A DNA stretch of 41,183 nt from Desulfobacteraceae bacterium (lineage in GTDB: Bacteria; Desulfobacterota; Desulfobacteria; Desulfobacterales; RPRI01). Positions 27,688 through 41,183 of this stretch are shown here, in pieces. The notes beneath the pieces were generated by a model. The model worked only from the letters and a program-made list of their open reading frames with translations. It had not been told where the DNA came from and did no database searches. The number at the start of each line of letters is the position of its first letter. Position 1 is the stretch's first letter. The position numbers were made by a program, and so were the translations under genes. Where the stretch lies: assembly GCA_003818505.1 (NCBI GenBank), contig RPRI01000033.1:1-41183 (forward strand), read 5' to 3'.

Positions 27688-28117
27688 GGCTTGGCTTACT
27701 TCCTCAGCTTTTGTGTTCAACTTTCTCGAATAATGACTGCTCTGGTATCTTTGCGGGAATCGTTGCGTTCATATCGGCCTGCATGACATAAAACGGTCCG
27801 CTTCTGAGTCTAAAAGAACATTCGGAGTCTCTTCTCCCATACTCCTTACTACTTTGTCCAGGAGACCCTTAATAACATCCAATTTTTGGCCGAGTACAAG
27901 GAAGGCGATAATTTCAACCACAGGAATACATGGAGTATTTCGAGGATAGCGCTTTGCTTCACTTCGTGCCAAAATTTGAGCCTGAGACAGTAATCGGGTA
28001 AAAGGGGGAGTTATGCAAAGGTCTCTCCAGGTGCTTGGGCAGTTGTTCCTGTTCAATCCTGATGATCTGCCCTGCTTTTTCCTCTTTTTTTGCTCTCTCA
28101 GTTCAGTTATCTTGCAT
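27644..28117 (-). pseudogene. IS256-family (Mutator) transposase relic, N-terminal part
   Basis: Reading the reverse strand from the ATG at 28117, with GGAGGG just upstream, gives MQDN, a TGA stop, TERAKKEEKAGQIIRIEQEQ and LPKHLD. The MITE at 27862-28025 interrupts here. Removing it with one 5-bp duplication continues the frame as KVVRSMGEETPNVLLDSEADRF. After single-base shifts come AGRYERNDSRKDTRA, GHYSRKLNTKAEEVS and PKLRTLPFETAI. These are the conserved N-terminal blocks of IS256-type transposases. Only about the first 100 of ~400 residues remain, and the catalytic DDE region is absent. No inverted-repeat end of the IS is recognisable. Confidence 0.85.
27862..28025 (-). mobile_element. 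MITE-like element, copy A (164 bp) with TCCAG target duplication
   Basis: The element starts GAGACCCTTA and ends GCAAAGGTCTC. It is flanked by identical 5-bp direct repeats TCCAG at 27857-27861 and 28026-28030. It is inserted in the IS256-family transposase relic and splits it between the codons for LPKHL and D. It is alignable along its length with copies B (29253-29394) and C (37359-37501), with 22 extra bases in the middle at about 27940-27962. It has no transposase gene of its own; its open frames are incidental. Confidence 0.9.
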
Positions 28118-29014: not shown

Positions 29015-29498
29015 TCAACTTGCAATTAACCTGTGTCGGAGGATTTCACGAGGAAGAATATTTTCAATCCGGATTTTTAGCTCTGGTATATTATTTTTAA
29101 CAATGTCCCAGAACATTGCGTAATCCACTCCAAAATAGTGGTGGATAAGCCGATCACGCATTCGTGTCATCAGCTTCCGTGCAATTTCCGGATTCTTCTC
29201 CTTAAATTACTCGGGAATTTTTTTTAAGATTCACCGATAATTTCCAGACTGCGAGACCTTTGAAGAACGTCCAATTTTGGCCAAGTACAAGGAAGGCGAA
29301 AATTTTAACCACAGGAATACATTTAGTATTTCGAGGATTAAAATTTGAGCCTGACACAGTAATCGGGCAAAAGAGGGCGTTATGCAAGGGTCTCACTGCG
29401 ACTGAAAGCGCGCTTCAACCTATCATCTTTCATGAAAAAACTTCGGACAATTCTTTCGAGTTATTGATGAGATAATTGATTTCATCAAGAATGCGCAT
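29015..29498 (-). pseudogene. HepT-like (DUF86, HEPN) gene relic interrupted by a MITE
   Basis: From the ATG at 29498 the reverse strand reads MRILDEINYLINNSKELS, then after a one-base shift MKDDRLKRAFSRS. MITE copy B intervenes. Removing it with one duplication gives a direct join to LEIIGES. After one more shift come KKIPE, an in-frame TAA, then FKEKNPEIARKLMTRMRD, RLIHHYFGVDYAMFWDIV and KNNIPELKIRIENIL, ending in TGA at 29015-29017. The HEPN motif R-x4-H is kept (RDRLIH). HepT proteins are the HEPN toxin half of MntA-HepT pairs. No nucleotidyltransferase (MntA) partner is present, and several lesions show the gene is dead. Confidence 0.87.
29253..29394 (-). mobile_element. MITE-like element, copy B (142 bp) with ACTGC target duplication
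   Basis: It starts GAGACCTTTGAAGAACG and ends CAAGGGTCTC. Its two ~30-base ends pair as imperfect inverted repeats (23 of 30 positions by eye). Identical 5-bp direct repeats ACTGC flank it at 29248-29252 and 29395-29399. It is inserted in the HepT-like relic, between the codons for AFSRS and LEIIGES. It has the same orientation as copy A and lacks that copy's 22-base middle insert. Confidence 0.92.
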
Positions 29499-29560: not shown

Positions 29561-29614
29561 GCTCACTAACCCCGCCGCAAGCAGCGGGGTTAGTGCTCGC
29601 TGTTTCGGTTCAAG
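29561..29614 (+). repeat. Dispersed repeat with 12-bp GC-rich hairpin (copy 1)
   Basis: It contains the perfect stem CACTAACCCCGC (29564-29575) / GCGGGGTTAGTG (29584-29595) with an 8-base loop, followed by GCTCGCTGTTTCGGTTCAAG (29595-29614). The same 20 bases and the GCAAGCAGCG loop region recur in reverse orientation at 39233-39280. It lies 45 bases past the end of the molybdate transporter gene and could act as a transcription barrier or mRNA 3' stabiliser, but there is no T-run. Confidence 0.7.
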
Positions 29615-32320: not shown

Positions 32321-32986
32321 TTATATGTAGCGTTGGAGAAACAGGAAAGTGGCCAGGAGTAACATCCCTGCAAAAACGGCGATCCAGTCTGCCGGGCGCA
32401 TTTTGTATTCATTAAGAAATGTTCTTCCCGATCGTCCGAATCCGCGGGACTCCATTGCTTCAGCAAGCTCTTCCGCAAGCCGGATCGACTGAATGAGCAC
32501 CGGTATCAATAATACATGAATATACCTGACGGCTTTCAATCCCGGCCCGATCGGAATGCCTCTTGAGCGCTGAGCATCGATAACATTTCCTGCTTTGCGG
32601 GCCATGACCGGAACAAACTGCAAAGAGACGCTCATTACAAAAGCAACAGGATACGGAATCCCGGCCTTTACGAGCGCATTGCCCAGATCTTCGGGAGATG
32701 TTGAGATGAAAAAAGCAAAAAAAACCGAGGCGATGTTTATGAGTTTGAATCCTGCAATAAATGCTGAATTTACATCTGCAGACCACCAGACAACAGCGCT
32801 GAAAAATACAGCCATCGGAGCAACGGTTTTAAACCAGCGTAAAGACTCTTTTGTTTTGCCTGTCATAAGAATCAGGAGCAGAATGAACACCCATTCGGAA
32901 ACAAGAGGAAGAGGTTCGTACGAAAACAGGACAAGGATGCTGTAATAAAAGGAAAGGATAAGTTTCGTCCTCGGATCAAACGTCAT
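32321..32986 (-). CDS. ecfT: ECF transporter transmembrane protein EcfT
   Basis: About 221 residues from the ATG at 32986 (MTFDPRTKLILS); the longer frame to 33019 would overlap further into the ATPase gene. It has the EcfT N-terminus and, in the C-terminal half, the two coupling motifs with the X-Arg-Gly signature (AQRSRG and AMESRGFG) that contact the ATPases. Five to six membrane segments are seen. EcfT joins the ATPases to a substrate-binding S component, here ThiW encoded just upstream. Its start overlaps the end of the ATPase gene by 11 bases, showing coupled translation. It is the last gene of the thiamine-salvage unit. Confidence 0.9.
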   Translation of the reverse strand: MTFDPRTKLILSFYYSILVLFSYEPLPLVSEWVFILLLILMTGKTKESLRWFKTVAPMAVFFSAVVWWSADVNSAFIAGFKLINIASVFFAFFISTSPEDLGNALVKAGIPYPVAFVMSVSLQFVPVMARKAGNVIDAQRSRGIPIGPGLKAVRYIHVLLIPVLIQSIRLAEELAEAMESRGFGRSGRTFLNEYKMRPADWIAVFAGMLLLATFLFLQRYI

Positions 32987-34499
32987 TTTCCATCCTTTCG
33001 AAAGGCATAAGACCGGCAAGCCGCATTGCAGTCTTATCGGCGATCACACTGCCGGGTGTTCCTTCGGAAATTATTCTTCCCTTTGACATGAGAAGAAACC
33101 GGTGAGCGTTCTGCTTCGCAAATAAAAGATCATGGGTTGCGAGAAGAACTGAAACTCCGTTTGCCGCGAGATCCGATAAAAATTCGGAAAGGGAATGACG
33201 AAACCTGGCATCCTGCCCTGCCGTAGGTTCATCAAGCGCGAGAACGGCAGGTTTTGAGGCAAGAGCCGAAGCAAATGCAACACGTTTTTTCTCTCCTCCG
33301 CTCAGCCGGTAGGGCGCGCGTTTTAATAATTTTTCAAGTCCGAAAAGGTTAACCAGCCTCTTTATCCATTTTGCATCGTAACAATTGAGAGCGTCGGCCC
33401 CTGCCGATATTTCATCCCGCACATTAAGTCTGAAAAACTGGTTGTCCGGATTCTGAAAGGCTATTCCGGCATACCTCGCAAGTTCCGGGATTTTCATTTT
33501 TGATGTGTCCTGCCCCGATAGAATTATTTTCCCCTTATCCGGCCTGTAAAGTCCGTTAATGTGCTTTAGAAGCGTCGTTTTTCCTGCGCCGTTTGCTCCA
33601 AGAAGGGCGATGCATTCTCCTCTGTGCAGAGTGAAACTGATATCTTTCAGAAGGGGGATGCCGTTTCCGGAAAAAGAGATATCCTCGACGGAAAGAACAG
33701 TTTCATCTCCGGGCGGCGGGACGTGGGTTTCGGTTTTTTCCTCACCGTGTCCGCAGAGAAGAAATTCGAGACCGTACTCTTTGACATGACCCGGTAGAAG
33801 AAGCGCGGGAGGTGTGTCAATTACAATACGCCCTTCGTGAATAACAGCTACGCGATCAACATCAGGAAGGGTATAATGGAGCCGGTGTTCGGAGATAAGG
33901 ATGCACATTTCCAGTCTACAGATCTCTTTTAAGGCGTAACGGACTTTCTGCACGTTTGAAGGGTCCAGATTTGCATATGGCTCGTCTAGTACAATTAATT
34001 TCGGCTTAATAGCAATTGCAGCCGCTATCGCAACAAGCTGTTTTTCGCCGTCAGAAAGAGTTTGAGGGTTGCGGTAAAGAAGAGCAGCAATTGAAAGTAT
34101 CTCTGCCGCCTGCATGACTCTGTTTTTTATTTCGGATCGGGCAAGACCAAGGCTTTCAAGGCCGAAGGCAATCTCGTGCTCGACCGTGCTGCAGAAGAGC
34201 TGTGACTCAGGATTCTGAAAGACCATCCCGACCATTTGAAGCATATCGCCAACCGTCCTGATTGCAGTATCGACGCCGGCGATCCTAACATACCCCTCGA
34301 GAAAACCGCCGTAAAAATGAGGAATGAGGCCGTTCAATGTGCGGCAAAGTGTCGATTTCCCTGAGCCGCTCTGTCCGCAAAGGAGAATATATTCATTTTG
34401 CCCGGCTGTAAGATCTATTCCGTTTAATACTGGTGAGGCTGTTGTTTCCCGGTAGGAATATCTGAGGCTGTCGATTTTTATCGTATGATGATAATGCAT
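32976..34499 (-). CDS. ECF transporter ATPase, two ABC domains fused (EcfA-EcfA')
   Basis: A 507-residue protein with two complete ABC ATPase domains. Domain 1: Walker A GQSGSGKST, signature TLSDGEKQLVA, Walker B LIVLDEPYANLD. Domain 2 (from about residue 265): Walker A GANGAGKTT, signature RLSGGEKKRVAFA, Walker B VLALDEPTAGQD. ECF transporters usually use two separate ATPases (EcfA1/A2); here they are one chain. Domain 1 has the weaker LSDGE signature, an asymmetry common in EcfA pairs. The start codon overlaps the thiW stop (TGATG). It powers uptake through EcfT and ThiW. Confidence 0.93.
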   Translation of the reverse strand: MHYHHTIKIDSLRYSYRETTASPVLNGIDLTAGQNEYILLCGQSGSGKSTLCRTLNGLIPHFYGGFLEGYVRIAGVDTAIRTVGDMLQMVGMVFQNPESQLFCSTVEHEIAFGLESLGLARSEIKNRVMQAAEILSIAALLYRNPQTLSDGEKQLVAIAAAIAIKPKLIVLDEPYANLDPSNVQKVRYALKEICRLEMCILISEHRLHYTLPDVDRVAVIHEGRIVIDTPPALLLPGHVKEYGLEFLLCGHGEEKTETHVPPPGDETVLSVEDISFSGNGIPLLKDISFTLHRGECIALLGANGAGKTTLLKHINGLYRPDKGKIILSGQDTSKMKIPELARYAGIAFQNPDNQFFRLNVRDEISAGADALNCYDAKWIKRLVNLFGLEKLLKRAPYRLSGGEKKRVAFASALASKPAVLALDEPTAGQDARFRHSLSEFLSDLAANGVSVLLATHDLLFAKQNAHRFLLMSKGRIISEGTPGSVIADKTAMRLAGLMPFERMENDV

Positions 34500-35029
34500 C
34501 AGATCTCATGGCTTTCAGGATACAGGATATCAGCACGGAACAATGCCTTAAGGGCTATTACTCCAAGGATTGCACCGGTCACCGAACTTGCGAGGAAGGA
34601 AGGAATAAGCGCTAAAAGAGGTATGGCTTTCCCCATCAGCACGGGAGCAAAAAAAACCGAGCATACGACAGGGGCGATAATTCCTGACCCTATCACTTCA
34701 CCGAAAGCCCCTATATGCAGATTACGCGTATACCGGAAGAGATATCCGGCAAGTATGGCTCCTATCATCCCGCCTGGAAAAGCGAGGATTGTGCCTACAC
34801 CCAGGACATTCCGGATGAGCCCTATGACGGCGGCAGTCACCATCGCCCAGAAAGGACCGAGGAGCACAGCACCCAGCATATTGATGAAATGCTGTGTGGG
34901 ATTAATTTTGGCAATCCCGATGGGTAAGGACGTGTATGGTGAAAGCGCTATTCCTGCCGCAGCAAGAACGACAGCGTATGCAGCTTTGCGGGTATAATTT
35001 CCTGCCGGTTCCGTGTGATTGCTTTTCAT
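34499..35029 (-). CDS. thiW: ThiW, S component for thiamine-thiazole precursor uptake
   Basis: A 176-residue membrane protein with about five to six segments. The sequence GIALSPYTSLPIGIAKINPT and then FINMLGAVLLGPFWAMV and TILAFPGGMIGAILAGYLF matches the ThiW family of ECF S components, predicted to take up hydroxyethylthiazole. It lies three bases after the cytX stop and overlaps the EcfA gene by one base, giving a dedicated EcfS-EcfA-EcfT set in one operon. The upstream TPP riboswitch and thiD support the assignment. Confidence 0.9.
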   Translation of the reverse strand: MKSNHTEPAGNYTRKAAYAVVLAAAGIALSPYTSLPIGIAKINPTQHFINMLGAVLLGPFWAMVTAAVIGLIRNVLGVGTILAFPGGMIGAILAGYLFRYTRNLHIGAFGEVIGSGIIAPVVCSVFFAPVLMGKAIPLLALIPSFLASSVTGAILGVIALKALFRADILYPESHEI

Positions 35030-35032
35030 AAT

Positions 35033-36214
35033 TTATTTTTTAAAAACCTTCCTCAAAATTAAATGAATCACGAAAGTGAATATTATCGTCAAAAGCGTGG
35101 GACCAGTTACTATCTGAACAGGTTTGATAAGATAGTAGAATATGATACCAGCGGCAAGAGATATCGCAGCGACAGGGTCCGCCTTTTTATCCCTCGAATC
35201 GATTTTGAGAATGAAATAGTCCGTAAGCAGAATAGATATCAGCGGAGAAAAAACTGAGCCCAATAGATAAAGGAATGAGGTGTATTGTTCCATAGGAAAA
35301 AAGATTGCAAGAAGCGTTCCCGCAAGAGCAAAAAAGACTCCGGCAAACTCTCGTTTTATCCCGGGAAAAATATTCAAAAAAGAAATCGCCGCCGAGTGAA
35401 CATCCAGAAATGTCGTCGTAACGGTTGATAGGCCTATTATCATCAGGGCTATGATGCCAAGATTTGCGGCAAGCATCATGCCTGTCGGATCCGGTGAACC
35501 GGAATAAATTCCGCCGAACATTCCGATGCCATACATCCAGCAGCTTCCGGTAAAATATCCCGCAAACGGGGCTATCCATGCTCCCTTTTTTGATTCGGAA
35601 AGGGAAGTATAATCAGCTATAAGGGGAAACCAGCTCAGCGGCATGATTATGGAAAGCTCGAATCCTGTTCCGAAAAACCCCGTACTTCTGACTCCTGAAA
35701 GGTCCGGAGTCTGCCTTAAAATTACTACTGTCATTACAATGGTCAGAATAAGAAGGAGAAAAACAGCCGCCATGTTTAATTTTTTGAATCCATGAAACCC
35801 TGAGATGACCCAGATTCCTATCAAGACCCCCATTAAAACCGATTGAACTGCGATGTTGTCGAATTGCCATAGTGAAGATGTTACGATGCTGATCGCTCTC
35901 CCGCCTTCTATTATCATTATGGCTGTCCAGCCTATGAGCTGAAGTATATTTATAACGGAGATGAGATAAGATCCCTGTTTTCCGAACGATATCCGGGTGG
36001 ACATTATTGAAGGAAGCCGCTCGTTGAAACCTATGATCCCGGCTGATACAAGCAGGGCTGTTCCGGCCAGGTGCCCCAGGATTATGGCCCATATCCCTTT
36101 TGAAACTCCGAGATCGGCAAGATACCCGCCTGTGAGTATTTCAGCCACCGAAACGGCTGCTCCGAACCAGAGAAAAAAAAGATTAGCCGATGTTAAAGAC
36201 CGTTTATTTTCCAT
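35033..36214 (-). CDS. cytX: CytX, putative hydroxymethylpyrimidine permease
   Basis: A 393-residue NCS1-family transporter (purine/cytosine permease group) with about 12 membrane segments. The N-terminus FFLWFGAAVSVAEILTGGYL and the stretch INILQLIGWTAIMIIEGGRA are typical of CytX, repeatedly found under TPP riboswitch control with thiamine genes and predicted to import hydroxymethylpyrimidine. Its start overlaps the end of thiD by 11 bases. Together with ThiD it would bring in and phosphorylate the pyrimidine half of thiamine, while ThiW-Ecf brings in the thiazole half. Confidence 0.91.
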   Translation of the reverse strand: MENKRSLTSANLFFLWFGAAVSVAEILTGGYLADLGVSKGIWAIILGHLAGTALLVSAGIIGFNERLPSIMSTRISFGKQGSYLISVINILQLIGWTAIMIIEGGRAISIVTSSLWQFDNIAVQSVLMGVLIGIWVISGFHGFKKLNMAAVFLLLILTIVMTVVILRQTPDLSGVRSTGFFGTGFELSIIMPLSWFPLIADYTSLSESKKGAWIAPFAGYFTGSCWMYGIGMFGGIYSGSPDPTGMMLAANLGIIALMIIGLSTVTTTFLDVHSAAISFLNIFPGIKREFAGVFFALAGTLLAIFFPMEQYTSFLYLLGSVFSPLISILLTDYFILKIDSRDKKADPVAAISLAAGIIFYYLIKPVQIVTGPTLLTIIFTFVIHLILRKVFKK

Positions 36215-37016
36215 CGCATTTTATGTCTCTTTCGTGAAGTTTGAAGAAATGGTCGACAGGACCGTGACCATGCCCGATTTCAAGCGAATGCTCTATTGCG
36301 CCGGTTATATATGCCTTTGCAGCAGAGACGGCTTTAAAAAAATCTATACCTTTCGCAAGATTTGCCGCTATAGCGGAAGAAAAGGTGCAGCCGGTTCCGT
36401 GAGTATTTTTTGTTTCAATTCTTTTATTTGTCAGTTCTTTAAAAAGAATTCCGTCGTATAAAATGTCCGTTGCGAGTTTTCCGTTAAGATGTCCTCCCTT
36501 TACAACCACTTTTTTGGCGCCGAGTTTTAATATTTTTGCAGCTGCATGTTTCATTTCATCCGTGCTTTCTATCTTTGTGTCAGTCAGGGCTTCAGCCTCA
36601 TAAATGTTCGGAGTAACGACATCTGCAATAGGAAAGAGATTTTTGACAAGAGCATCCCGGGCATCATTTTTAAGAAGGCTGTATCCGCTTTTTGAAATCA
36701 TTACAGGATCAAGAACCACGGGAGGCAGATCGATTTTACCAAGAGTTTCAGCAATTGTTTCTATCAGTTTTATGCCGGAAACCATACCTATTTTAACGGC
36801 ATCGATACTGATATCTTCAAAAAGATACATGATCTGGTCATGTACCATGACAGGATCAATATCCAAAACACTGTAAACCTTCGTCGTGTTCTGTACCGTC
36901 ACTGCTGTTATCACGCTCATTCCGAAAACACCGTGAGCGTGAAACGTTTTAAGATCGGCCTGTATTCCGGCTCCGCCTGAAGGGTCCGAACCTGCTATAG
37001 TTAAAGCTGTTCTCAT
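36204..37016 (-). CDS. thiD: Hydroxymethylpyrimidine/phosphomethylpyrimidine kinase
   Basis: About 270 residues from the ATG at 37016 (MRTALTIAGSDPSGGAGIQADL), with GGGGAT six bases upstream. The longer frame to 37070 is rejected because its extra N-terminus comes from the repeat at 37044-37164. Ribokinase-fold signatures are the substrate loop AGSDPSGGAG, DPVMISKSGYSLL, VVKGGHL and the anion-hole/catalytic motif KNTHGTGCTFSSAIAA. ThiD phosphorylates HMP and HMP-P to HMP-PP, the pyrimidine donor for ThiE. It is the first gene after the TPP riboswitch in the leftward unit thiD-cytX-thiW-ecfA-ecfT. Confidence 0.95.
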   Translation of the reverse strand: MRTALTIAGSDPSGGAGIQADLKTFHAHGVFGMSVITAVTVQNTTKVYSVLDIDPVMVHDQIMYLFEDISIDAVKIGMVSGIKLIETIAETLGKIDLPPVVLDPVMISKSGYSLLKNDARDALVKNLFPIADVVTPNIYEAEALTDTKIESTDEMKHAAAKILKLGAKKVVVKGGHLNGKLATDILYDGILFKELTNKRIETKNTHGTGCTFSSAIAANLAKGIDFFKAVSAAKAYITGAIEHSLEIGHGHGPVDHFFKLHERDIKCDGK

Positions 37017-37043
37017 GTTAGATCCCCGATAAAATATGATGGT

Positions 37044-37164
37044 TTCGTAAAAAGTTGAAAATCCCGTCACTCCCGTGAAAACGGTAGTCCAGAACTAGTC
37101 GAAAAGACTGGATTCCCGCTTCTGCGGAAATGACTTAAAAGAGCATATTTATATTTTTTACGAA
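37044..37164. repeat. Inverted-repeat element in the thiD leader (121 bp)
   Basis: The outer ends are a perfect 10-bp inverted repeat, TTCGTAAAAA (37044-37053) and TTTTTACGAA (37155-37164). Inside lie two 27-base arms (37066-37092 and 37108-37134) that pair imperfectly, of the GTCA-x-TCCCG...GTCCAG / CTGGATTCCCG...TGAC type common as a dispersed repeat in proteobacteria. It falls between the TPP riboswitch and the thiD start codon, so it is part of the leader RNA and would fold as a long hairpin. Confidence 0.8.
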
Positions 37165-37295
37165 GGCATCAATGAATGATAGCTTTGTAAAAAATCTATA
37201 TATCCGATAATCGAGGGCCGGAAACCATTTTTGTTGCTGCGGGAAAACTTCTGGAAGAATAGGGGAAGGAAAGTTGCCTTCATGGGTCATATTCT

Positions 37296-37530
37296 CCGAG
37301 TTCCCTACGACAGCATTAACTGTATCAGGTTCAGTGGGTTTTTTCTCAGTCCCGTCCGGAAACCTTTGTATAATGCCCCCTTTTGCCCGATTACTGTGTC
37401 AGGCTCAAATTTCAATACTCGAAATACTTCAATGTATTCCTGCGTTTGAAATAATCGCCTTCCGTGTACTTGGGCAAAATTGGGTGTTCTCCAAAGGTTT
37501 CCGCCGTGTGCGGCGGAACACCCCAATCGG
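37296..37530 (-). ncRNA. TPP riboswitch (THI element), split in P3 by a MITE
   Basis: On the reverse strand the 3' part (37358 to 37296) contains the conserved thi-box core: GGGACTGAGA (CTGAGA at 37344-37349), ACCC, GAACCTGAT, ACAG-TTAATG-CTGT and CGTAGGGAA (37301-37309), closing with CTCGG. The 5' part lies beyond the MITE at 37530 to 37502: CCGATTGGGGTG, then GTTCCGCCG-CACA-CGGCG. Removing the 143-bp element and its 3' flanking 5-mer gives P1 CCGA/TCGG, P2 GGGT/ACCC and a perfect 9-bp P3 (GTTCCGCCG with CGGCGGGAC, one G-U pair). It should sense thiamine pyrophosphate and repress thiD-cytX-thiW-ecfA-ecfT. No clear terminator or sequestering stem is visible in the 280-base leader. Confidence 0.9.
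37359..37501 (+). mobile_element. MITE-like element, copy C (143 bp), inside the riboswitch
   Basis: It is in inverted orientation relative to copies A and B. On the + strand it starts GAAACCTTTGTATAATGCC and ends CCAAAGGTTTC. It aligns with copy B along its whole length (for example CTGACACAGTAATCGGGCAAAA is shared in sense). The flanking 5-mers are GTCCG (37354-37358) and CGCCG (37502-37506), a decayed or imperfect target duplication. The insertion point is in the 3' strand of the TPP riboswitch P3 helix. Confidence 0.88.
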
Positions 37531-37571: not shown

Positions 37572-39164
37572 CTATTTTTTCCCGTGCTGAAAAGAATCAA
37601 TTCCGGGAATGCTAATTACATGCTTTCCGTTAAAAGGCAGGCACCGCCCGACCTGAAAGGAGCCTTTCAGTTTATCCGAAATTGTTTTATAAATATCAGG
37701 ACGGCAGGCAAAGAGAAGCTCATAATCTTCCCCGCCCGCGAGGACAATTTCTTCCGGTTTTTTACCGTATTTCCTGCAGAAAGAAACAAGGGACGGGTCA
37801 AAAGGAGAGGACATCAGATCAAGTTCAACCGTTATTCCGGAAGCCTTTGCGATATGGCAGGAGTCGCCGGCAAGGCCGTCGCTTATATCCATGACGCAGT
37901 CAACTCCCGCTTCGGCAAGTATCTGGGCTGCATCGAATCTTGCCGCCGGGAATTTGAATTTTGATACAAGGCTGTTAAAACTGGTGTCGTTTTTTATTAG
38001 TGATTCAAGACCTGCCCTTGCAAGGCCCAAAGGGCCCGTGGAATAAAGCCCGTATCCCGGCCTTGCATTCGAACGCTTGGGGAATATATCATTTCTTCCA
38101 GCTCCAACTGCAAAGAGATCCAGCGACAACTCGTTTCCAGCTGATATATTTCCTCCTCCGAGCGAACATTCATGGCGGTTCAGGCTTTTGGCCACGCCCT
38201 TGTAGATCTCTTCGATCATACTGTCTGAAACATAAGAAGGAAGTGAAAGATTGATGAAGAGAATTACCGGCCTGGCATAACAGGCGGCAATGTCGCTGAG
38301 TGTCGCTTCGACAGCTTTAATTCCAACTTCTTCCGGAGTCTGCCAGCTGAGCCTGAAATGAATTCCTTCCTTCTGTGTATCGGTCGTAATCACCGGGTTT
38401 GAAACCGGGGCAAGGAGACAGGCGTCATCTCCCGGAGGAACTATCATGTTCAATGATGCAGGCACGTTTTTCAACAGTTTTTCGATAAGTCCGAATTCGT
38501 CATCCCACGGGGTGTGTAATAAAGATCGAGCAGGGCAGGAGCAGGCCGAGCCGATCTTAAGCGCCGCCTGCAACGGATCGGAAGCCCTCGAAATGGAGCT
38601 TATCACCGCGATCCCGTCAGCTTTGTGGAGAAAACATGACTGAGCCGTTTTTTCGGTTATGCCTCCTATCGCGACGACCGGCAGGGAAACTTTTTCGGCA
38701 ATCGACTGAAGTCCTGAAAGACCGGTTACCTTTTTTGTGTCTTCCTTGGTGCCGGTGGCGAAAACAGGGCCTGTTCCGATATAATCGCAGTCAGTGAGAA
38801 CAGTCCTTCCAAGCTCATCCGGGGTGGAGATGGATATTCCTATAACCGCTTCAGTGCCCAGAATTTTTCTCGCAACGGAAGGTGTTTCATCACTCTGGCC
38901 CAGGTGAACTCCGTCTGCCGTCAAAGCTTTGGCGAGAAGGATGTTGTCATTTACGATAAAAGGTATGTTGTTGCATTTGCAGAAATCTCTGATTTCCTCA
39001 GCTTCCCTGTAATAACCCGAAGAAAAGGACTTGTTTCTGTACTGTATTATCGTTGCTCCGGCTTTTATGGCGATCTTTGCCTGGGCAAAGGGCTCGATTG
39101 CAGGCGCTTTGTCGTCCGTTATGAAATAAAATCGAAGGGCTTTTTTAAGGTCTTGTTTCAGCAT
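37572..39164 (-). CDS. Fused thiamine-phosphate synthase / thiamine-monophosphate kinase (ThiE-ThiL)
   Basis: A 530-residue bifunctional protein. Residues ~1-205 are ThiE: FYFITDD, ATIIQYRNKS, FIVNDNILLAKALTADGVHLGQ, YIGTGPVFATGTK and VVAIGGI, the TIM-barrel enzyme that joins HMP-PP and thiazole phosphate. From ~218 it is ThiL: DEFGLIEKLLKN, PPGDDACLL, TTDTQKEGIHF, ATLSDIAACYARP, MDISDGLAGD and AGGEDYELLF, which phosphorylates TMP to TPP with ATP. The two steps are consecutive, so the fusion could channel TMP. The start at 39164 (MLKQDLKK) has only a weak ribosome site. It ends 41 bases before the riboswitch of the next unit. No TPP riboswitch is seen upstream of this gene itself. Confidence 0.93.
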   Translation of the reverse strand: MLKQDLKKALRFYFITDDKAPAIEPFAQAKIAIKAGATIIQYRNKSFSSGYYREAEEIRDFCKCNNIPFIVNDNILLAKALTADGVHLGQSDETPSVARKILGTEAVIGISISTPDELGRTVLTDCDYIGTGPVFATGTKEDTKKVTGLSGLQSIAEKVSLPVVAIGGITEKTAQSCFLHKADGIAVISSISRASDPLQAALKIGSACSCPARSLLHTPWDDEFGLIEKLLKNVPASLNMIVPPGDDACLLAPVSNPVITTDTQKEGIHFRLSWQTPEEVGIKAVEATLSDIAACYARPVILFINLSLPSYVSDSMIEEIYKGVAKSLNRHECSLGGGNISAGNELSLDLFAVGAGRNDIFPKRSNARPGYGLYSTGPLGLARAGLESLIKNDTSFNSLVSKFKFPAARFDAAQILAEAGVDCVMDISDGLAGDSCHIAKASGITVELDLMSSPFDPSLVSFCRKYGKKPEEIVLAGGEDYELLFACRPDIYKTISDKLKGSFQVGRCLPFNGKHVISIPGIDSFQHGKK

Positions 39165-39232: not shown

Positions 39233-39280
39233 CTTGAACCGAAACAGCGAGCGCATTTCTCGCTGCTTGCAGCGGTGAGC
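39233..39280 (-). repeat. Dispersed repeat (copy 2, inverted relative to 29561-29614)
   Basis: CTTGAACCGAAACAGCGAGC (39233-39252) is the exact reverse complement of 29595-29614, followed by the GC-rich CGCTGCTTGCAGCGGTGAGC matching the hairpin part of copy 1 with a shorter stem. It lies about 70 bases upstream of the thiE-thiL start. Confidence 0.7.
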
Positions 39281-40108: not shown

Positions 40109-41183
40109 TTATTTTAAAATTTTCCGCGAAAGAAGGACGCCCTCTATGAAAGGATCAATCGCTCCGTCAAGAACGCTGTTAACATTTCCCGTTTCGATGT
40201 TTGTCCTGTGATCTTTTATCATCTGGTAAGGGTGAAGCACGTAAGATCTTATCTGGCTCCCCCAGGCTATCTCCTCCTTGCCGTCATGCATTTCCTGAAG
40301 TTTGTCATCCTGCTTCTGCTTTTCAAGCTGATACATGCGGGATTTAAGGACGGACATAGCCATTTCCTTGTTCCTGTGCTGGGATCTTTCCTGCTGGCAC
40401 TGAACCACTATTCCTGTCGGAGCGTGCGTTATCCTGACGGCGCTGCTTGTTTTGTTGACGTGCTGCCCGCCCGCGCCGCTCGCCCTGAATACATCTATCC
40501 TGAGATCTTTTTCGTCGATTTCGACCTCTATATCATTATCGAGTTCGGGATATACGAATACCGAAGCAAAGGAGGTGTGCCGCTTTCCGTTTGCATTGAA
40601 AGGAGATATTCTTACGAGGCGGTGAACTCCTTTTTCGGTTTTTAAATATCCATAGGCATAATCACCCTCGGCTGTGAATGTCACGCTTTTGATTCCAGCC
40701 TCGTCGCCGGGCTGAAAATCTATAAGCGCAAACTTGAAGCCCTTTCTTTCAACCCATCTTGCGTACATCCTGAAGAGTTTCTCCGCCCAGTCCTGCGCCT
40801 CGGTTCCTCCCGCCCCAGCATTGATAGAAACGATGGCGTTGTTCTGGTCGTCTTCGCCGTCTAACATGAGATCAAGAGAATATTTTTTTATTTTTTCTCT
40901 GATATTCTGAAGCTGGCGGGAGACTTCTTCGATGGTTTTTGAGTCGGATTCTTCAATAGCCAGATTAAACAGGATTTCACTTTCTTCAAAATCGATGGTT
41001 AGTTTTCTGAAATTTTCTATCTTGCCTGAAAGGAGCCTTCTTTCCTTGAGAAGCGGCGTCGCCTTCTCATGGCTTTCCCAGAAATTATCTTTCGATATCA
41101 GAAATTCTATCTCTTTTAATCTTTTTTCCTTGTTATCGAAGTCAAAGATAGTCTTTCAGTTCTGCTAATTTCTGGCCCATTTC
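40109..41183 (-). CDS. prfB: Peptide chain release factor 2, with programmed +1 frameshift, 5' end beyond window
   Basis: The main frame runs from 41143 down to 40109. It continues upstream of the ATG at 40867, which is internal. Landmarks are the stop-codon recognition loop RISPFNANGKRHTSF (SPF tripeptide, RF2 type), the catalytic RASGAGGQHVNKTSS (GGQ) and the C-terminal IRSYVLHPYQMIKDHRT. Upstream, the zero frame MGQKLAELKDYL ends at TGA (41142-41144) in the context TATCTTTGAC, the classic RF2 recoding site. After a +1 shift it continues DFDNKEKRLKEIEFL into the main frame. Only about a dozen N-terminal codons are missing. RF2 releases peptides at UAA and UGA. Confidence 0.95.
41141..41150 (-). 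promoter_or_regulatory. prfB programmed frameshift site
   Basis: On the reverse strand TATCTTTGAC, where CTT (41145-41147) is followed by the in-frame stop TGA (41142-41144). Slippage of one base forward lets GAC be read and joins the two RF2 frames. The usual upstream Shine-Dalgarno-like AGGGGG is replaced by the weaker GAAAGA, three bases further up. Confidence 0.9.

Follow-up and report, generated by a model that had tools for sequence, protein, structure and literature searches.

A MITE copy within the P3 helix of a TPP riboswitch upstream of thiD in Desulfobacteraceae, with the aptamer probably retained around it

Can a ligand-sensing mRNA leader keep its shape after a mobile element has entered one of its helices? 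The question is raised by the window analyzed here, i.e., the whole stretch of 41,183 nucleotides (positions 1 to 41,183 of contig RPRI01000033.1, assembly GCA_003818505.1) from a Desulfobacteraceae bacterium. On its minus strand, upstream of thiD, positions 37296-37530 carry the thi-box blocks of a TPP riboswitch aptamer whose P3 helix is split by 143 bp (37359-37501). The first-pass annotation had placed these blocks on the reverse strand with the 5' strands 143 bases away, and we were able to confirm the coordinates. The 5' block is CCGATTGGGGTGTTCCG (37530-37514), which provides the 5' strands of P1 (37530-37526) and P2 (37524-37521) and the P3 base GTTCCG (37519-37514). The 3' block is CGGGACTGAGA...ACTCGG (37354-37296), which according to the RF00059 alignment contains the 3' strand of P3 (CGGGAC, 37354-37349), CTGAGA, the 3' strand of P2, P4/P5, and the 3' strand of P1 (TCGG, 37299-37296). 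The core blocks GGGG, CTGAGA, ACCC, GAACCTGAT and GTAGGGA are all found in the window and are kept in six orthologues; the Rfam match over the 3' part, MFE folds with P1-P5, and intact orthologues point to the same assignment. In silico excision of the element together with one flanking 5-mer gives GTTCCGCCG-CACA-CGGCGGGAC, that is, the P3 of 9 bp with a CACA loop that had been described beforehand.

The leader precedes thiamine genes, all on the minus strand. The operon thiD-cytX-thiW-ecf that had been proposed is borne out by Pfam matches: thiD (36204-37070; PF08543, 334 bits; probable ATG start near 37016) is its first gene, followed by a cytX-like permease (35033-36214), thiW (34499-35029), an ECF ABC ATPase (32976-34499) and a CbiQ-type subunit (32321-33019). 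Upstream of the leader lies a gene for a ThiE-ThiL fusion of 530 aa (37572-39164, minus strand; PF02581 and PF00586/PF02769). Scanning the element and the leader for consensus promoters gave none above the threshold; a weak candidate, TTGCAT-17-TAAGCT (37570-37542), occupies a conserved position, with a score too low to count. Elsewhere in the window, prfB has CTTTGA (41142-41147) at the break between two frames, as in the programmed frameshift known for release factor 2.

The inserted sequence (minus strand) belongs to a repeat family with about 40 copies in the genome (42 matches at E<=0.01), two of which are also found in the window (27862-28025 and 29253-29394). It has the traits of a MITE (short, non-coding, with terminal inverted repeats, and present in many copies): its end repeats are 38 nt long and 79% complementary, and full-length copies have the inverted ends GAGACC...GGTCTC. 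Judged on 27 full copies, the family duplicates 5 bp of target sequence, with a flank identity of 64% at this length and about one third at other lengths (six of the 27 duplications are exact). At the P3 site the duplication has decayed to CGGCG on the left (37502-37506) and CGGAC on the right (37354-37358, its last C starting the 3' strand of P3), identical at three of five positions. No transposase was evident beside unpaired ends in the 14 regions inspected for an autonomous partner, and among other Rfam families at the approximately 40 element-bearing loci we found tRNAs only. A match of the element to MIR6140 (22.5 bits, cutoff 140) was dismissed as chance. Using window positions 37359-37501 as the query, the repeat family was seen in 85 of 194 genomes and 55 of 120 genera of the order; many of these matches span only about positions 20-125, the interior being conserved and the ends being different, which is unusual for a MITE. 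We also note an inverted repeat pair in the window (29572-29614 and 39233-39275; 43 nt, 84% complementary, 9.6 kb apart), probably from a second repeat family.

We surveyed ten genomes of the genus, with G000 denoting the genome of the window; its close relatives are uncultured Desulfobacterales/Desulfobacteraceae. Four of the ten (G000, G001, G007 and G008) have a thiD leader with the element in P3, at one common site. Since the insertion is seen in four separate assemblies, a misassembly is very unlikely. The thiD leaders of G003 and G005 are uninterrupted, with a P3 of GTTCTGC-ATATAGGG-GCAGAAC (or GCGGAAC); they join within P3 at the point predicted in the first-pass annotation, and the element is therefore dispensable.

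When folded without constraints, each of the four interrupted leaders had an MFE structure with all of P1-P5, in which the element extends as an arm from a P3 base of 6 bp (GTTCCG paired with CGGGAC or CGGAAC). The mean pair probabilities are 0.77 (P1), 0.53 (P2), 0.73 (P3), 0.88 (P4) and 0.97 (P5). In the fold of the window leader the former P3 tip and the left flank (37502-37513, minus strand) provide a tip stem, CCG-CACA-CGG (37513-37504), and a CG that lengthens the arm. The tip folds as a side hairpin in G000 and G008, giving the three-way junction that had been anticipated for this site (GTTCCG/CGGGAC base, tip and element arm); it is not conserved in G001 and G007. An alternative P3 base through pairing of CGGAC, suggested along with the junction, is not needed. 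The insert is tolerated because the element folds on itself (-60.3 kcal/mol with two flanking bases per side). When 41 other natural copies were placed in the G000 site, the core stayed intact in 76% of the cases, as compared to 1% for 200 dinucleotide-shuffled elements and 43% for the element in the opposite orientation. Slid along the intact aptamer of G005, the element is accommodated between CTGAGA and ACCC as well as at the tip of P3, and is disruptive within most stems; the model, which is 2D and does not reach L5-P3 tertiary docking, also permits it at some junctions and in L5, where tertiary contacts may object.

From these folds and from the conservation presented below, we consider it probable that the TPP riboswitch has kept its fold, and most likely its ability to sense TPP, with the MITE as a very long P3 arm. 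The structural and evolutionary readings are supported, and switch function is likely. In an ancestor, one copy of the 143-bp inverted-repeat element would have entered the distal 3' side of P3, duplicating 5 bp. Once transcribed, the element would fold into an arm of about 50 bp, and because it folds on itself, GTTCCG and CGGGAC would be rejoined as the 6-bp P3 base, with what had been the P3 tip now a small hairpin or loop at the side. The insertion would leave P1, P2, P4, P5 and the ligand-binding nucleotides untouched, and TPP binding is presumably kept.

The likely expression platform (37241-37305, minus strand) is left untouched by the element as well. In six of six leaders, GGGAACTCGGAGAATA, which provides the 3' strands of P4 and P1, has a potential pairing partner about 30 nt further downstream, a block ending in TTTTCC (in the window TATTCTTCCAGAAGTTTTCCC, 37261-37241). 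According to the predicted folds, this competing hairpin excludes the aptamer, rivals P1/P4, and is conserved whether or not a leader carries the insert. A choice between the aptamer and a competing hairpin is the usual logic of metabolite-controlled leaders. The 3' strand of P1/P4 would be part of the aptamer when TPP is bound and of the competing hairpin otherwise, which would set the expression of thiD-cytX-thiW-ECF; we infer both the switching and its direction from these pairings. The platform also includes a small terminator-like hairpin, GAAGG-CAACTTT-CCTTC (37265-37281, minus strand); two terminator-like sites were found versus 1.0 expected, and the hairpin is not proof of function.

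A long, nearly continuous stem, as predicted for the arm, is also what RNase III might cut. The riboswitch would then be a two-piece aptamer, if it works at all, or the arm would serve as an mRNA processing site. Precedents are available: RNase III excises the IVS RNA from helix 45 of the Coxiella 23S rRNA, and the fragmented rRNA that is left is functional (PMC4990558), and RNase III cuts Correia elements in the mtrCDE mRNA (PMC10969869). However, internal loops interrupt the predicted stem at short intervals, which perhaps makes it ill-suited to the enzyme. We regard cleavage as possible, if somewhat doubtful; it is compatible with a leader that folds around the arm, and our confidences in the two overlap.

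Substitutions in the arm tend to preserve its pairing. Among the four species, the outer arm has 19 substitutions with three broken cells (12.4 expected) and five double substitutions that keep pairing (0.36 expected); in a column-shuffle control, seven of 500 shuffles reached the count of double changes and six of 500 reached the covariation score, all of this being based on four sequences and on a structure derived from the same sequences. One of the five double changes (column pair 33/177; GC, GU and AU) is located in the flanks just outside the element. Broken pairs per substitution amount to 0.28 in diverged copies elsewhere versus 0.11 in the P3 arm; since these diverged copies also retain some arm pairing, some of this signal may come from the element itself. 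We therefore read the paired substitutions as supporting a stem that has been maintained, and not as demonstrating that the arm has acquired a role. An arm recruited to stabilize P3 or an L5 contact, to provide a processing site, or to delay folding for TPP binding, with selection keeping its pairing, seems unlikely to us, and the arm itself may well be neutral. The first-pass annotation had the core surviving and the transposon domesticated as a peripheral arm: the conserved core and the paired substitutions sustain the survival and the peripheral arm, and domestication in the sense of a gained function finds no such backing. As a separate matter, unusually slow evolution of the element at the P3 site is unsupported, the G008 and G001 copies being 88% alike (insert and flanks); another copy common to these two genomes appears, by eye, more alike than their P3 copies.

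Did the element enter P3 once? When 46 element copies were placed in a tree, those from P3 of the four species grouped together as a single clade (98/87; recovered in 96% of the bootstrap trees), and these copies thus share a single origin, which argues that one insertion persisted. P3 flanks are also common across clades (ATTAATAATGCG in G007 and G008, TGAGCGG in G001 and G007), so that G007 and clade A share both the left and the right flank. A single insertion would be the simplest reading of the shared site. Repeated insertions into a P3 hot spot would account for the species tree: according to rpoB/gyrB, G007 groups with G003 and G005 and adjoins the uninserted G003 (74/80 for DNA, 91/90 for protein), which requires losses or a second gain, and the family did enter a TPP riboswitch a second time in G009. 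In the thiL tree, however, G007 lies outside all others carrying the thiD leader, and one insertion and one loss therefore suffice. Given the single clade and the shared flanks, we find independent insertions at this site quite improbable. With a thiL pS of 0.64-0.74 separating G007 from the others, the insertion is either old or was transferred along with its leader. Some exchange between species is likely because the leader and thiL trees disagree with rpoB/gyrB, and for this reason we do not claim strictly vertical descent. The downstream parts of the leaders are mosaic, with G000 resembling G003 and G007 resembling G008, contrary to the species tree (loci L063, L066, L082, L069 and L095).

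The second event is in the thiC leader of G009 (locus L072, 354-620, minus strand), in which a copy of the same family lies between CTGAGA and ACTC, i.e., at the P3a position. Its flanks are AAGCG and AACCG, and the empty 5-bp target AATCG is visible in G004 (L065) and G006 (L068). This insertion is an independent one, and its copy falls outside the P3 clade in the 46-copy tree. Two insertions, both at naturally variable positions of TPP riboswitches, would fit the survival of those that spare the core.

Had the insertion broken the riboswitch, the core would be a relic and thiD-cytX-thiW-ECF would be constitutive. A random 143-nt insert would indeed destroy P2/P3, as the 1% of shuffled elements that keep them indicates, and the Rfam score of the window leader is low: RF00059 gives a single contiguous match (37285-37390) of 45.4 bits, under the gathering cutoff of 54.3, which is a detection threshold rather than a trait that defines TPP riboswitches. 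The interrupted leaders of G001, G007 and G008 also stay below it (the three scores, in descending order, being 51.9, 49.3 and 40.1 bits), and the uninterrupted ones pass it (70.6 bits for G005 and 65.2 for G003). A relic, however, would hardly show the observed conservation. No difference is seen among the six species (four interrupted and two intact leaders) in the 5' strands of P1 and P2 or in CCGATTGGGGTGTTC, and the first 20 aligned nucleotides are identical in the four inserted species. Variable columns among these four are rarer in the core (5/82) than in the element (27/143; Fisher p=0.009). All core pairs are retained, with the P3 base varying solely from U-G to U-A, even though G007 is separated from the others by a thiL pS of about 0.7. 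We hold a broken switch to be very improbable.

The window match does not span the insert; it takes the 5' strands of P1-P3 from element bases, and most of its P1 pairs are mismatched. The matches in the sister species borrow other element bases each time (the G007 alignment is without P2), and because equivalent matches use different bases, we consider the element-borrowed half of the alignment not real, most likely an artefact of a model that does not span the insert. The only sign of a complete, alternative P1-P3 to one side of the element, a finding that would have spoken against the first-pass annotation, is this sub-threshold, P1-mismatched and species-inconsistent alignment. That the real aptamer uses 5' strands in the right end of the element (GGGGGC and GTTTC, in line with the Rfam match drawing P2/P3 from there), with the distal 5' block irrelevant, is highly improbable given those mismatches and inconsistencies, and given that the distal block does not differ between leaders with and without the insert and is what Rfam uses in the latter (AATCCGATTGGGGTG).

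If the leader indeed folds around its MITE arm, the locus would offer a traceable origin for peripheral arms in regulatory RNAs, in which a transposon able to fold on itself lands in a helix that tolerates it, and the sensor retains its shape. The case is traceable through relatives lacking the insert, insertions common to several species, and a second, independent event. Standard annotation misses such armed riboswitches because the four P3 leaders, and likewise the G009 thiC leader, fall below the Rfam cutoff. Our literature search, with most subscription papers outside its reach, brought up no case of a riboswitch aptamer containing a MITE, and a 2024 review of prokaryotic MITEs merely calls a link between MITEs and riboswitches conceivable (PMC10969869).

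Compared to known systems, the window leader resembles bacterial thi-box TPP riboswitches (RF00059) in its core blocks, its P1-P5, its place before thi genes and its competing downstream hairpin, and differs from them in the 143-nt MITE arm and side hairpin of its P3 and in its score below the cutoff. The intervening sequences in helix 45 of 23S rRNA, which together with the Rickettsia palindromic elements are the nearest parallels, are likewise selfish inserts whose ends pair with each other within one helix of a structured RNA; in contrast to the arm described here, for which no excision is known, RNase III removes them, and an ORF may be present in them (PMC4990558). Rickettsia palindromic elements are short palindromic repeats in structured RNAs (the tmRNA and RNase P RNA genes), perhaps neutral ones; they are a different element in different bacteria, and they reside in RNA genes rather than in a ligand-sensing mRNA leader (PMC2229807). 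According to PMC6414600 and PMC12632268, P3 varies in length among TPP riboswitches, its distal part is not needed for ligand binding, and extended P3 stems and P3a stems are already known. The extended-P3 riboswitches (Klebsiella thiC; plants) have likewise gained length distally in P3, with the ligand pocket elsewhere; the accessible text of these papers gives no mobile-element origin for them, whereas the arm described here goes back to a traceable transposition, with uninserted relatives for comparison.
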